Assembly: GCA_016124195.1 (NCBI GenBank)
Contig: WGOE01000011.1
Span: 1-64,000, forward strand
Length of the DNA: 64,000 nucleotides
Direction of reading: 5' to 3'
From: a bacterium
Lineage (GTDB): Bacteria > Pseudomonadota > Alphaproteobacteria > Rhodobacterales > Rhodobacteraceae
Position numbers and translations under genes: made by a program. The notes beneath the pieces are model-generated. The model was not told where the DNA came from. It did not search any database and was given only the letters and a program-made list of their open reading frames with translations. Below are positions 16,081 to 63,558 of the stretch, one piece after another. Position 1 is the first letter of the stretch. Each line of letters begins with the position of its first letter.

Positions 16081-18078
16081 TCAGTCCTTCGGCACGACCC
16101 GCAGCCGCAACTCGCGGAGCTGTTCGTTCAGCGGCTCGGACGGGGCGCCCATCAACAGATCCTCGGCGCGCTGGTTCATCGGGAACATGATGACCTCGCG
16201 GATGTTCATCTCGTCGGCCAAGAGCATCACCGCCCGGTCGATCCCCATGGCACAGCCGCCGTGCGGCGGGGCGCCATATTTGAACGCCTTGACCATGCCG
16301 CCGAAGCGCTTGTCGACCTCGGAGTTCGGATAGCCGGCGAGTTCAAACGCCTTGTACATGATCTCGGGCTTGTGGTTGCGGATGCCGCCCGAGATGAGTT
16401 CATAGCCGTTGCAGGCAAGGTCATACTGATAGGCATAGACGCTGAGCGGATCGCCCTGCAACGCCTCCAATCCCCCCTGCGGCATCGAGAAAGGGTTGTG
16501 GCTGAAGTCGATCTTGCCGTCGTCGGTCTTTTCATACATCGGGAAATCGACGATCCAGGCAAAGCGGAAGGTGTCCGTCTCTGCCAGCCCCAACTCCCGC
16601 CCGATCTCGTTGCGCGCCTTGCCGGCAAAGGCCTGAAACGCCTCGGGCTTGCCGCCAAGGAAGAAGGCCGCATCGCCAAGGCCAAGGCCCAGCTGCTGGC
16701 GGATCGCCTCGGTCCGCTCGGGCCCGATGTTCTTGGCCAGGGGGCCGGCGGCTTCCATGGGGCTGAAGTACGCCCTTGTTAGGAAATCAGCAGTTACGTA
16801 GTCACGACGCAGTAGCGCCGAATGAATTCTGTCCGCGGCCTCCTTTTCCTGCGCACCCACGATTGCTGATGCCCATGCCTCAAAATCCTTTTTGATGTCT
16901 TCTTCATCAGAGATGTGGATCAAACGGTGCGCTTTTGAAGCTCCAGCGATAGTTTCAAGCGTCTCCCCAAAAGTTGGAGGTTCTGCGCCCTCCTTTTCGC
17001 GCCAGAAGATATAGCCCATGCCCGGCAGGCCTTCCTTCTGGGCGAAGGCGTTCATGCGGTCGCAGAACTTGCGGCTGCCGCCCTTGGGCGCGGGGATGGC
17101 GCGGACCTCGGTGCCCTCCTGCTCCAGGAGTTTGGCAAAGACGGCAAAGCCCGAGCCGCGGAAGTGGTCGGAGACGACCTGCATCTTGATCGGGTTCCTG
17201 AGGTCCGGCTTGTCGGACCCGTACCACAGAAGGCTGTCACGATAGGCGATGCGCGGCCATTCGCCGGGCACCTTGCAATCGGGGCGGAACTTTTCGAACA
17301 GGCCCTGGATCACCGGCTGGACGGCGGCAAAGACATCCTCCTGCTCGACGAAGCTCATTTCCACGTCAAGCTGGTAGAAGTCGGTCGGGCTGCGGTCGGC
17401 GCGCGGGTCCTCGTCGCGGAAACAGGGGGCGATCTGGAAATAGCGGTCAAAGCCCGCGACCATGATCAGTTGCTTGAACTGCTGCGGCGCCTGCGGAAGG
17501 GCGTAGAACTTGCCCGGATGCAGCCGCGACGGCACGAGGAAGTCGCGCGCCCCTTCCGGGCTGCTGGCCGTGATGATCGGCGTCTGGAATTCATTGAAAC
17601 CCTGATCCCACATCCGGTTGCGCAGGTCGCGCACGACGTTCGACCGCAGCATCATGTTGCGGTGCAGCTTGTCGCGCCGCAGGTCGAGAAAACGGTAGGT
17701 CAGGCGCGTCTCTTCGGGGTAATCCACCTCACCAAAGACCGGCAGGGGCAGATCGGCCGCCTCGCCCAGCACGGTCAGGCCGGTGGCATAGACCTCGATC
17801 TCGCCGGTCGGCAGCTTGGGGTTCACAAGGCTTGCATCGCGCTGCTTCACCCGCCCGTCGATCCGCACCACCCATTCCGAGCGCACCTTCTCGATCTCGG
17901 CAAAAGCCGGGCTGTCGCTGTCGGCCAGCACCTGCGTGATGCCATAGTGATCGCGCAGGTCAATGAAGAGGACCCCGCCATGATCGCGCACCCGGTGAAC
18001 CCAGCCCGCGAGGCGGACGGTCTCTCCCACGTTCGAAGTGTTGAGCGCGGCACAAGTGTGGCTGCGATAGGCGTGCAT
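16081..18078 (-). CDS. aspS: aspartyl-tRNA synthetase with in-frame insertion
   Basis: A class II aminoacyl-tRNA synthetase that charges tRNA-Asp. The order is normal: N-terminal OB anticodon-binding domain (about 1-105), motif 1 and motif 2 region ([18 protein letters not shown], then [14 protein letters not shown]), GAD insertion domain, and motif 3 ([14 protein letters not shown]). At 665 residues it is about 75-80 longer than usual for the bacterial form (about 590). The excess lies between GYIFWRE and [10 protein letters not shown] in the GAD domain, at residues about 362-440, and its base composition differs sharply from the rest of the gene (see the separate entry). The frame is intact across it. 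Start at ATG 18078 follows from the conserved MHAYRSHTC; an in-frame extension to 18144 is not supported. Confidence 0.96.
16759..16995 (-). other. in-frame low-GC insertion within aspS
   Basis: Codons for residues 362-440 of AspRS have no counterpart in the usual bacterial enzyme. The core, 71 codons at 16768-16980, has 108 G or C among 213 bases (about 51%, my hand count), against well over 60% on either side, and uses codons otherwise rare here (ACT, CTA, ACA, GTA, AGA, TCA). The encoded peptide is charged and probably helical (for example [13 protein letters not shown] and [17 protein letters not shown]). A ten-base direct repeat CCTCCTTTTC occurs at 16839-16848 and 16989-16998. No stop codon or frameshift. 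Origin by insertion is inferred. Confidence 0.75.
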
Positions 18079-55673: not shown

Positions 55674-56414
55674 TCAGTGCTTTTTTCGGGGGGCGAACAG
55701 CGGGTAATAGGCCCAGTCCGGCAGGAATTGTGACAGCCGGAAGACCCAGGAAAACACGGCTGGAAAGCTTTTCTTGAAGGCGGTGCCCTGCATCAGGCGC
55801 ATCATGTGACCTGCGGCCTCGGCCGGTTCCATCAGGAAGGGCATGGAAAAGTTGTTGAGCGCGGTCAGACGCGTCTTGATGAACCCGGGGTTGGCGAGTT
55901 GCACGCGGATGCCGCTGCCGCGCAGATCGGCCTGCAGGCATTCGGCCAGCGCCATCACGCCCGCCTTGCTGGCCTGATAGCCCATGGCCCCCGGCAGACC
56001 GCGAAAGCCCGACAGCGAGCCGGTCAGCACGATATGCCCCTCCCCGCGCGCCACCATGCCGGGCAGGACGGCGCCCAGCACCCGGGCGCAGCCGGTGAAA
56101 TTGACGTCGCACATCTGGACGAACTGCGCAGGCTCGAGCCCGTCGGCCGGCATCGGCCAATAGACGCCCGCCAGCCAGACCAGGCCATCCACCGCGCCAA
56201 CCCGCGCGGCAGCCGCGGCAACCGAGGCGTCATCGGCCACGTCAACCGGAACGGCTTCGGCCCCGGGCAGGGTCTGGCAGACCTCGTCCAGGCGGGCGGC
56301 GTTGCGGGCCGACAGCACGAGGCGGGCGCCGGCGGCGTGCATCTGTTCCGCCAGCGCCAGCCCCAGCCCTTCGGAGGCGCCCACCAGCCAGTAGCGTTTG
56401 CCGGAAAGGTTCAT
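55674..56414 (-). CDS. SDR family oxidoreductase
   Basis: A 246-residue short-chain dehydrogenase. N-terminal YWLVGASEGLGLALAEQM (8-25), catalytic Ser and Tyr-x3-Lys in LTGSLSGFRGLPGAMGYQASK, and NPGFIKTRLT. The C-terminal tail is basic and hydrophobic (FSWVFRLSQFLPDWAYYPLF), suggesting membrane association. It is the last gene of the minus-strand operon FAD protein-DUF1365-DUF3833-SDR; its start overlaps the DUF3833 stop (56411-56414). Confidence 0.9.
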   Translation of the reverse strand: MNLSGKRYWLVGASEGLGLALAEQMHAAGARLVLSARNAARLDEVCQTLPGAEAVPVDVADDASVAAAAARVGAVDGLVWLAGVYWPMPADGLEPAQFVQMCDVNFTGCARVLGAVLPGMVARGEGHIVLTGSLSGFRGLPGAMGYQASKAGVMALAECLQADLRGSGIRVQLANPGFIKTRLTALNNFSMPFLMEPAEAAGHMMRLMQGTAFKKSFPAVFSWVFRLSQFLPDWAYYPLFAPRKKH

Positions 56415-56962
56415 GCCGCGGCCGGCATCGGGCGCATGGTGGCGATCAGTTCGGCGACCTTGATGCCGAACTTGCGGAACTGGCTGCGGTTCATGATGGT
56501 GCCATTGGGCATCAGATACATCCAGTCGACCACGTCCAGCACATGGCCGCCGGCCTCGGCGGGCAGGCGGATGCGGTAGCGCATCTCGCAGGCCGGGCCC
56601 TCGGTCCGGCCGGAACCGGCGCCGACCAGATCATCGGCCTCGGCGCGGATCGAGCCGTCGTTGGACAGGCTGAGCCGCCAGGCGCGGTCCTGGGTGGCGC
56701 CGCTGTCATAGCGGAACCTTTCGGTCAGAGTGCCGCGCGTGCCGTCCCACTTGCCCTCCATATCCGCGACAAAGCGCGAGGAGACCCGCCCGAAGGGGCC
56801 GTAGATCACGCCCTCGCACAGGATCGGGCCGCTCAGGTGGGTGCGCGGGTCGAACTGCGGCCCCTTGCCCTTGTACTCGGCCAGCGACTGGCTGGGGAAC
56901 CCGGTGAAGCGGGGGGCCAGGATCAGCAAAGCCACGAGCGCGATGACAGCGAAAAGGAACAT
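56411..56962 (-). CDS. DUF3833 family protein
   Basis: A 183-residue protein with one N-terminal hydrophobic helix (about 1-18) and a beta-rich soluble part: GPILCEGVIYGPFGRVSSRF, GTLTERFRYDSGATQDRAW and WMYLMPNGTIMNRSQFRKFG, the DUF3833 signature. Lipid-binding by analogy with lipocalin-like folds is inference only. The start ATG 56962 overlaps the DUF1365 stop (TGATG), and a GTG three bases earlier is an alternative. Confidence 0.85.
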   Translation of the reverse strand: MFLFAVIALVALLILAPRFTGFPSQSLAEYKGKGPQFDPRTHLSGPILCEGVIYGPFGRVSSRFVADMEGKWDGTRGTLTERFRYDSGATQDRAWRLSLSNDGSIRAEADDLVGAGSGRTEGPACEMRYRIRLPAEAGGHVLDVVDWMYLMPNGTIMNRSQFRKFGIKVAELIATMRPMPAAA

Positions 56963-61955: not shown

Positions 61956-62527
61956 GATTAATTCTCGGATCGGCAAGCCCGCGCCGGAAAGAGCTTCTGG
62001 CGCAGCTTGGGATCGTGCCTGACGCGATCATCCCCCCCGACATCGACGAAGACCCGCGTCCGCGCGAATTGCCCCTGCCCTATTGCGCCCGGATCGCGCG
62101 GGACAAGGCCCTGGCGGTGCCGGCCGGGCCGGACGATCTGGTGCTGTGCGCCGATACGACCGTGGCGATCGGTCGCCGCATCCTGGGCAAGCCCGCCGAT
62201 GCCGGGCAGGCGGCGGAGTTTCTGACCGCTCTGGGCGGGCGGCGCCACCAGGTCATCACGGCCCTGGCCCTGCGGCGGGGCGACCGGTTGTGGGAGCGTG
62301 CGAGCACCTCTGCCGTCAAGATGAAGCGGCTCTCCGATGTCGAGTTGAACGCCTATCTGGCCAGCGGCGAATGGCAGGGCAAGGCGGGCGCTTATGGAAT
62401 CCAGGGGGCGGCCGGTGCCTTCGTCCCGTGGATTTCAGGCAGTTTCACCGGCATCGTCGGGCTGCCCCTGGCCGAAACCGCAGCACTGCTGCAAGCCGCC
62501 GGTTATCCGGTGTGGAGAACATCATGA
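61952..62527 (+). CDS. maf: Maf-like nucleoside triphosphate pyrophosphatase
   Basis: A 191-residue house-cleaning pyrophosphatase, probably on modified pyrimidine or dTTP/UTP. Seen: [57 protein letters not shown] and [14 protein letters not shown] start at 61952 overlaps the infA stop. Overlaps rng by ATGA. Confidence 0.93.
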
Positions 62528-63558
62528 AGGGCCGCATCATCGTTCTGGACGAGATCGGAGGGCGCAAGGCCGCCGCCCTGATCGTGGATGGCGCGCTGCA
62601 GGACCTGCTGATCGACCCCGAGGATGACACGCCCCTGACCGGCGCCATTTATCGCGCCGTGGCCGACCGTCCGATGAAGGGCATGGGCGGCATGTTCGTC
62701 AAGCTGCCGGGCGGCACCTCTGGCTTTCTGCGGCAGACCGATGGGCTGGCGCCGGGTCAGCGCCTTCTGGTTCAGGTCACGGGGCCGGCCGAGCCGGGCA
62801 AGGCGCTGCCGGTCACCGCGCGGCTGTTGTTCAAGGGGCGGCTTGCGATCGTCACGCCGGGCGCGCCGGGGCTGAACATCTCGCGCCGGATCAAGGACGA
62901 AAACCTGCGCGACCACCTGCAGACCCTGGCCGATGCCGGCATGGCCGGGTCCGACCCTGAGATCGGGCTGATCCTGCGTTCGGCCGCCGAAGCGGCGGAG
63001 GACGAAGATATTTCCGCCGAAATCGCCGAACTGCGCGCCCTCAGCGCCGCCGTGATGGCCGATCTGGACGGCGGGCCGGAACTGTTGCTGGAAGGGGCCA
63101 GCGCCCAGGACACCGCCTGGCGCGACTGGAGCGAGCCTGCCCCGGACGAGGTGATCGAAGGCGGCTTTGCCGATCACGGCGTGCTGGACCTGATCGAGGC
63201 CTTGCGCGGGCCACGGGTTGATCTGGGCAACGGCCACATGATGATCGAGCCGACACGCGCCCTGGTGGCGGTGGACGTGAACACCGGGGCCGACACCTCG
63301 CCCGCGGCCAGCCTCAAGGTCAATATCGCGGCCGCCCGCGACCTGCCGCGCCAGTTGCGGCTGCGTGGGCTGGGCGGGCAAGTCGTGGTGGACTTCGCGC
63401 CGATGCCCAAGAAGGACCGCGCCGTTCTGGATCAGGTGCTCAAGGCCGCCTTCAAGGCCGAGGGCGGCGAGGCCAATCTGGCCGGCTGGACCGTGCTGGG
63501 CCTGTACGAGATGACCCGCAAGCGTGACCGCCTGCCGCTGTCCGGGCTTTTGCCATGA
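62524..63558 (+). CDS. rng: ribonuclease E/G family protein
   Basis: A 344-residue ribonuclease of the RNase G/E catalytic core. Seen: a domain starting [25 protein letters not shown], and the DNase I-like site [11 protein letters not shown] with a later [10 protein letters not shown], whose Asp residues bind magnesium. It is shorter than RNase G (about 490), lacking much of the S1/5' sensor and small domain, so activity may differ. Overlaps maf and yacG by ATGA. Confidence 0.88.

Follow-up and report, generated by a model that had tools for sequence, protein, structure and literature searches.

Aspartyl-tRNA synthetase (AspRS) of the Rhodobacteraceae very probably possesses an exchangeable, hypervariable cassette site in a loop of its GAD domain. 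As read from the sequences, this loop has often gained, lost or replaced small in-frame cassettes that are AT-rich compared with every host gene examined, are read as part of the enzyme, and fall into many unrelated groups, some of which occur in different genera. Import of the cassettes by recombination is probable, and an arms race with an antagonist that binds AspRS is tentatively proposed as their function, this being the cause judged likeliest. The statement that joins the exchange site, import by recombination and antagonist-driven turnover is, as a whole, slightly favoured.

The aspS gene of the window and its insert

The aspS gene of the window (the whole stretch of 64,000 nucleotides that was analysed) has a reading frame that is unbroken from 18078 to 16084 (665 amino acids; Table 1). 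Its product has the class II D/K/N catalytic domain, the OB-fold anticodon domain and the GAD insertion domain of a bacterial-type AspRS. Pfam matches were obtained to tRNA-synt_2 (E-value 5e-108), the OB-fold (1e-16) and GAD (0.0017, up to residue 361), the latter scoring 19.0 bits, below its cut-off of 23.4, with only the part before the insert being matched. A preliminary description of this DNA had placed an in-frame insert of 79 codons after GYIFWRE (16759-16995), which was confirmed; in comparison with the congeners, the replaced stretch extends over 16756-16998, i.e., 81 codons in place of eight. Its estimate of about 51% G+C and its contrast in composition held as well, as the 243 bases contain 51.4% G+C, with a GC3 of 0.494 versus 0.867 in the remainder of aspS. 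When codon usage was checked, the insert peptide written with the codon choice of aspS itself had an expected GC3 of 0.861 versus the 0.494 observed, indicating that the low value is not due to the amino acid make-up. The EKEGAE/EKEAAD repeat that had been pointed out does correspond to a direct repeat of 17 nt, the copies of which are 88% identical and lie 150 nt apart, but it is probably a product of chance. No inverted repeat of at least 8 nt was reported in 16700-17060, the palindrome test covering the window insert only.

A mechanical scan of 51 open reading frames (ORFs) of the window yielded a 60-codon GC3 minimum of 0.45 for aspS, and in the same scan eight other ORFs dipped below 0.60, one of them deeper than aspS (0.43, ORF 55677-56630), most of these dips sitting at uncurated ORF ends. 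It is therefore the relatives, by comparison, that carry the argument for the insert. The minima of ORF 55677-56630 (minus strand; 0.43) and ORF 62023-63555 (plus strand; 0.50) lie near the 5' ends and probably reflect non-coding ORF extensions.

Table 1. Features of the aspS region of the window
Feature	Positions	Strand	Evidence
aspS, aspartyl-tRNA synthetase, 665 amino acids	16081..18078 (including the stop codon)	-	Pfam, known AspRS structures, fold match
Hypervariable cassette, residues 361-441, replacing the linker EAEDGSGM of the congeners	16756..16998	-	Comparison with congeners; GC3 0.494 versus 0.867
N-terminal portion of the cassette (residues 367-389), modelled at low confidence and perhaps disordered	16912..16980	-	pLDDT under 50
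C-terminal portion of the cassette with three helices (392-403, 409-423 and 427-438) and the group motif GDxxxAxFLxxAYFG	16765..16905	-	AlphaFold model; alignment of 34 inserts
Upstream shoulder GYIFWR, beta strand	16999..17016	-	Majority sequence in a second alignment; strand 355-361 in the model
Downstream shoulder EAAGPLAK, starting with a beta strand	16732..16755	-	Conserved across loci; strand 441-444 in the model
Imperfect 17-nt direct repeat, one copy (partner at 16982-16998), behind EKEAAD/EKEGAE	16832..16848		Probably chance

Within the genus, 12 of 15 congeners had a short linker at the site (11 loci were read, ten with EAEDGSGM and one with EAEDGSGR; the twelfth, G002, was assigned by match coordinates), one (G011) had a different insert of 45 amino acids that is dissimilar to that of the window, and two were unreadable, one being cut before the site and one having no aspS match. 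The cores of the congeneric AspRS proteins were at most 93.7% identical to the window core, and the window insert occurs as a single copy in its genome. Hence, an in-frame, composition-distinct insert unshared by the congeners, as described beforehand, was borne out. The opposite outcome, an old family feature carried by most relatives with the same insert and a matching composition, did not emerge: an insert is missing from most relatives, and those that have one carry others, with the same contrast in composition.

Position of the insert on the enzyme

In an AlphaFold model (34 sequences; mean pLDDT 79, pTM 0.75), the window AspRS adopts the bacterial AspRS fold (fold matches 1eqr, 1c0a and 4wj4). 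The modelled insert sits between the two shoulder strands (355-361 and 441-444), with its residues 367-389 at pLDDT below 50 and its three helices (392-403, 409-423 and 427-438) in blocks with a pLDDT of 73-87. Similarly, three helices at the same place were predicted for the AspRS of a Hyphomicrobium metagenome-assembled genome (MAG), the insert of which belongs to another group, at lower confidence (blocks mostly 43-77). Solved bacterial AspRS aligned with the window protein in two pieces flanking the insert (two alignments among the structures listed). The Pseudomonas aeruginosa enzyme (PDB 4wj3 and 4wj4) shares the core, aligned to residues 2-362 and 445-661 of the query, but has about eight residues at the cassette position. 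A solved structure containing the insert was sought and rejected; the PDB search with the largest insert group had a best E-value of 0.15, and the aligned structures skip the insert.

Occurrence across the Rhodobacteraceae and beyond

When a natural AspRS lacking the insert was used for the search, an aspS match was found in 385 of 394 Rhodobacteraceae genomes (384 of 393 genera), and in about 100 of those 385 the match was split at or near the insert site. At least 94 of the 385 matched genomes carry an insert in the same loop, of which at least 52 are hypervariable and at least 42 belong to a conserved family of 31-32 amino acids; these counts are lower bounds, because split matches miss short inserts. 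Most of the genomes with a split match were read at sequence level; G116 and G152 were located only, the insert of G037 is cut by a contig end, and G043 contains Ns. Seven others (G156, G222, G252, G261, G346, G373 and G435) had no insert on reading, the split being due to a contig end or another cause, while G264, with a single match, exceeded the query by about 25 codons. Hence, the idea of a strain-specific one-off did not hold, as the site is a hot spot throughout the family.

A second collection (80 loci) added Paracoccus subflavus, Rhodovulum steppense, Pseudorhodobacter antarcticus and a Cypionkella MAG as carriers, as well as two carriers outside the family, namely the Hyphomicrobium MAG (69 amino acids) and an Afipia MAG (43-46 amino acids, depending on the alignment). 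The record CP059262.1 (L170), titled as a MAG of Exiguobacterium profundum, has an aspS that is 82% identical to that of the window and 96% identical to that of G049, and looks mislabelled. In a sample of the phylum (249 genomes, at least 95% complete), split matches occurred in 7 of 17 Rhodobacteraceae, in none of 79 other Alphaproteobacteria, and in 2 of 153 other Pseudomonadota, the latter two assemblies having about 300 contigs and 5-9% contamination; two more had no match. In a sample of the class, 8 of 319 matched Alphaproteobacteria outside the family had a split match, known from match coordinates only. As a control, the gene pnp gave two matches in 4 of 197 genomes of the family, with a possible internal split only in G168 (320 contigs). 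The phenomenon is thus, in the main, centred on one bacterial family, the Rhodobacteraceae.

The conserved family of 31-32 amino acids (KTADAVAQELGI.VKEAQAKLKSGEVEGG / KQSADSIAQERGISVKEVNALIKSGEI) occupies the same loop, from GYIFWR to EAAGPLAK, in 56 fetched loci (for example L031, L035, L036, L038 and L057). Its GC3 is 0.685 versus 0.733 for its own genes, being lower in 42 of the 56 (p = 3e-5), and tracks the GC3 of the host gene (rho 0.61). The class is homologous within itself and showed 23 changes on a tree of 251 rows, a tree with at least 44 changes that is enriched for inserts, so that no rate follows from it. It looks like an old, nearly settled domain with a composition near that of the host, and may represent an old cassette that became fixed. 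The loci L140 and L146 have inserts of 31 amino acids (AESQQSMSERLNLSM... and EEPHKALAERLGLSM...) that resemble, by eye, far relatives of this family.

Composition, groups and constraint of the hypervariable inserts

All fetched loci together provided 70 distinct hypervariable inserts of 37-94 amino acids (71 in L086), every one of them in frame, the reading procedure detecting open ones only; two further candidates (L047 and L058) end at a contig border that makes the site unreadable. In 70 of 70 cases, GC3 was lower than in the remainder of the own gene (mean 0.498 versus 0.832; Wilcoxon p = 5e-13 for 69 inserts, L050 being left out) and also below the expectation from the codon choice of that gene (mean 0.823). 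In addition, 58 of the 65 inserts tested, those containing AQE by chance being left out, were below every core window of the same length examined. The GC3 of insert and core were weakly correlated (rho 0.31, p = 0.013), making some residence in the host likely. The mean net charge of the 70 inserts was -4.8.

Comparison with phmmer (E-value under 1e-3) divided 69 inserts into 27 sequence groups, the largest of which has 34 members, including that of the window, that have the C-terminal motif GDxxxAxFLxxAYFG in common and little else alike. Among 15 alignable pairs of inserts, picked for similarity, pS was 0.67-0.92 and pN 0.18-0.46, with pN below pS in 15 of 15; the pN/pS of the inserts (0.21-0.69), a rough ratio given that pS is saturated, exceeded that of the core in all 15 pairs. 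As residues vary less than codons, the inserts are apparently translated and constrained as peptides, albeit less than the core. Furthermore, the saturation of synonymous sites between related inserts indicates that their AT-richness has outlasted much substitution, and this persistence leaves room for readings other than a recent import from AT-rich donors. With their length of 37-94 amino acids, cysteine in 9 of the 70, and no intein among the Pfam matches at an E-value of 0.01, the inserts do not look like inteins.

Turnover between close relatives

Within Paracoccus, long inserts were found in 13 of 120 species with an aspS match (the site being uncovered in G567), and the other species fetched had a linker of 6-7 residues. 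These 13 inserts fall into seven groups: six are distant members of the largest group, two (L212 and L214) pair with each other, and the other five each belong elsewhere. A DNA tree built from 69 core sequences, including two outgroups, requires at least 10 changes in the presence of an insert (8 when only starred branches are counted). The carriers are slightly clustered on it (10 changes versus 12.1 in shuffles, 21 of 500 shuffles being as low). The sisters L005 and L215, on a starred branch, have inserts from different groups, and the inserts of the neighbours L218, L219 and L221, at an open fork, come from two groups, two of them being distant relatives within one group and the third belonging to another. 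Across all loci, cores that are 93.7-96.1% identical had inserts of different groups, or an insert in one of them only (L041/L149, L005/L215, L131/L214 and L216/L261). Conversely, related cassettes were found on diverged cores (L067/L211, insert 45% and core 82% identical; L073/L216, 38% and 76%; L054/L145, 37% and 65%), the first two pairs crossing genera and the third one involving the Hyphomicrobium MAG.

The genes neighbouring aspS in Paracoccus were of the same kinds with and without an insert, and a linkage of the insert to a neighbouring gene was rejected on 36 loci with mechanically called ORFs, aspS itself being missed by the script in some of them. In one Paracoccus species (L223; G497:C11:518000-532000), aspS is present twice, as complete and similar copies that are separated by about 6 kb and both lack an insert.

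Flanks and mode of entry

In Paracoccus, GC3 in the first 20 codons 3' of the insert was 0.585 and 0.646 in the 13 carriers versus 0.790 and 0.838 in 48 non-carriers (p = 2e-4 and 0.006), returning to normal from codon 30; the upstream flank did not differ significantly (0.838 versus 0.881, p = 0.16). These windows, 32 in all, were chosen after an earlier look at the data, and one further window was below 0.01, namely upstream codons 10-20 outside Paracoccus, where the carriers were higher (0.802 versus 0.735, p = 0.004). In the loci L210-L219, low GC3 extends beyond the 3' junction and hardly beyond the 5' junction. The other 57 carriers had no downstream effect (p = 0.27), while all 70 carriers together, corrected for their own core, had a deviation of -0.118 versus -0.04 in the first 10 downstream codons (p = 0.002). 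In the window insert, both junctions are sharp (0.9). The lowered flank divergence that is expected from broad recombination was not found at fourfold sites beside the insert, which were slightly less alike between genomes in carriers and non-carriers both. The low-GC3 tract downstream of the Paracoccus inserts looks like a recombination tract carrying donor flank, so that import by recombination is supported in this one genus and unproven in general.

Searches outside aspS

A profile of the largest group, searched against 121 genomes, gave six strong matches, all of them at aspS. No convincing homologue outside aspS was found in these 121 genomes, the remaining matches (E-values 0.003-0.05) lying in other, longer ORFs. 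Pfam searches with the inserts (34 and 36 sequences) gave best E-values of 0.0018 and 0.0024, for single members and under unrelated names. A named added domain such as CAAD was accordingly rejected, the curated domain models giving weak single-member matches only. Likewise, the PHROGs gave single-member matches only for all 70 inserts (best E-value 0.0012), and the PADLOC defence families none for 34 of the 70. Phages searched with the window insert gave no match, and plasmids one at an E-value of 0.3 only. A search of viral contigs with three inserts gave one match (L285), to a tape-measure-like protein; ten loci of viral contigs contained an AspRS, the site being readable in one, with no insert there. 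A phage or plasmid origin recognisable by sequence was rejected on the basis of the PHROGs, viral contig, phage and plasmid searches.

Possible function of the cassettes and alternative explanations

The cassettes would come from a common pool dedicated to this site, entering through recombination over the flanks of aspS. Less surely, they may fold as small helical domains, acidic on average, at the tip of a hairpin, and leave catalysis intact, while the altered surface may escape, or sometimes recruit, a protein that binds AspRS, for example a phage take-over protein or a toxin of a competitor. Repeated escape would drive the turnover of cassettes. A changing surface recognised by an antagonist fits the combination of one site, turnover between close relatives, cassettes known from that site only, mainly one family, constraint on the peptide and a position at the hairpin tip. 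An antagonist, a partner gene or a phage homologue was not found in the PHROGs, PADLOC, viral contig, phage and plasmid searches. The full picture of AspRS as a battleground, in which a putative antagonist (a phage or a competitor) binds the GAD hairpin and small shield domains are swapped in from a site-specific, family-wide pool, is somewhat unlikely in all its details.

The main rival to such an arms race is that the hairpin tip tolerates nearly anything and that inserts of low cost persist there without benefit, AT-rich because they are unshaped by host codon preference or GC-biased conversion. This explanation agrees with the variety of unrelated sequences and of lengths within a single tolerant loop, with the higher pN/pS of the inserts than of the core in all 15 pairs, and with the low model confidence of the N-terminal part of the window insert. 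However, neutral gain would be expected wherever the loop exists, yet split matches, which miss short inserts, were absent from the 79 other Alphaproteobacteria and rare in the other Pseudomonadota (2 of 153); moreover, the motif common to 34 inserts and a pN below pS, in pairs picked by similarity, suggest selection on the peptide. Mere tolerance of the loop is thereby weakened and is considered unlikely. Alternatively, the insert may be a docking domain that varies by lineage and serves a partner, for instance in tRNA-Asn transamidation. A bacterial AspRS forms a transamidosome (PDB 4wj3, by entry title), the predicted models have a helical domain, and the family of 31-32 amino acids resembles a settled domain. 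A docking partner should, however, stabilise its adaptor, and both presence and sequence of the insert vary among close relatives, making this function distinctly unlikely.

The preliminary description had likened the insert to the palindromic elements of Rickettsia. A selfish element of that type, spreading in frame through coding genes, would agree with an insert that is in frame, distinct in composition and tolerated in an essential gene. The comparison was not borne out, and such a dispersed element is very improbable, as the window insert is single-copy and free of inverted repeats, no convincing match occurs in other genes of the 121 genomes, and many unrelated groups share one site. Finally, a sharp-bordered low-GC stretch in one assembly could have been an artefact of assembly or contamination, which is hardly conceivable given that separate assemblies, of isolates and MAGs alike, contain 70 distinct inserts, all in frame, at this one position.

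Relation to known systems and significance

Rickettsia palindromic elements are known as in-frame inserts retained in the protein of a housekeeping gene, a property that the AspRS inserts share; the latter differ in having no inverted repeat, a single copy, one site and many unrelated sequences. Among aminoacyl-tRNA synthetases, conserved signature indels are loop inserts restricted to a lineage. The family of 31-32 amino acids is similar to these, but the hypervariable inserts differ between close relatives or are absent from some of them, and thus are not the homologous, clade-shared inserts by which such indels are defined. Aminoacyl-tRNA synthetases also carry added domains, such as CAAD of cyanobacteria, where, as here, an extra domain is inserted and catalysis presumably kept; the AspRS cassettes differ by their many groups and their patchy distribution within genera. 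The hsdS gene of type I restriction systems swaps cassettes, and the AspRS site likewise has conserved shoulders, a variable middle and related cassettes on diverged backbones. In contrast with hsdS-like loci, the gene concerned is an essential translation enzyme of which the empty allele is the commonest, aspS being compared at one genome per species. No published description of variable AspRS inserts was found in titles and the beginnings of abstracts, in a search outside which most subscription journals fall. Cassette exchange in an essential aminoacyl-tRNA synthetase thus appears to be a new phenomenon, insertion domains and cassette swapping each being already known.

Essential translation enzymes are regarded as part of the quiet genomic core. 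An AspRS site that varies among close relatives and is AT-rich in 70 of 70 cases suggests that a hitherto unrecognised selective agent acts on this enzyme, and the collection of inserts provides natural variants for seeking that agent. The inserts also allow the question of why acquired DNA remains AT-rich within a GC-rich gene to be addressed in a natural setting, and they identify an AspRS loop that naturally accommodates small domains. If the proposed antagonist exists, Rhodobacteraceae would possess a system resembling antigenic variation within an essential cytoplasmic enzyme.
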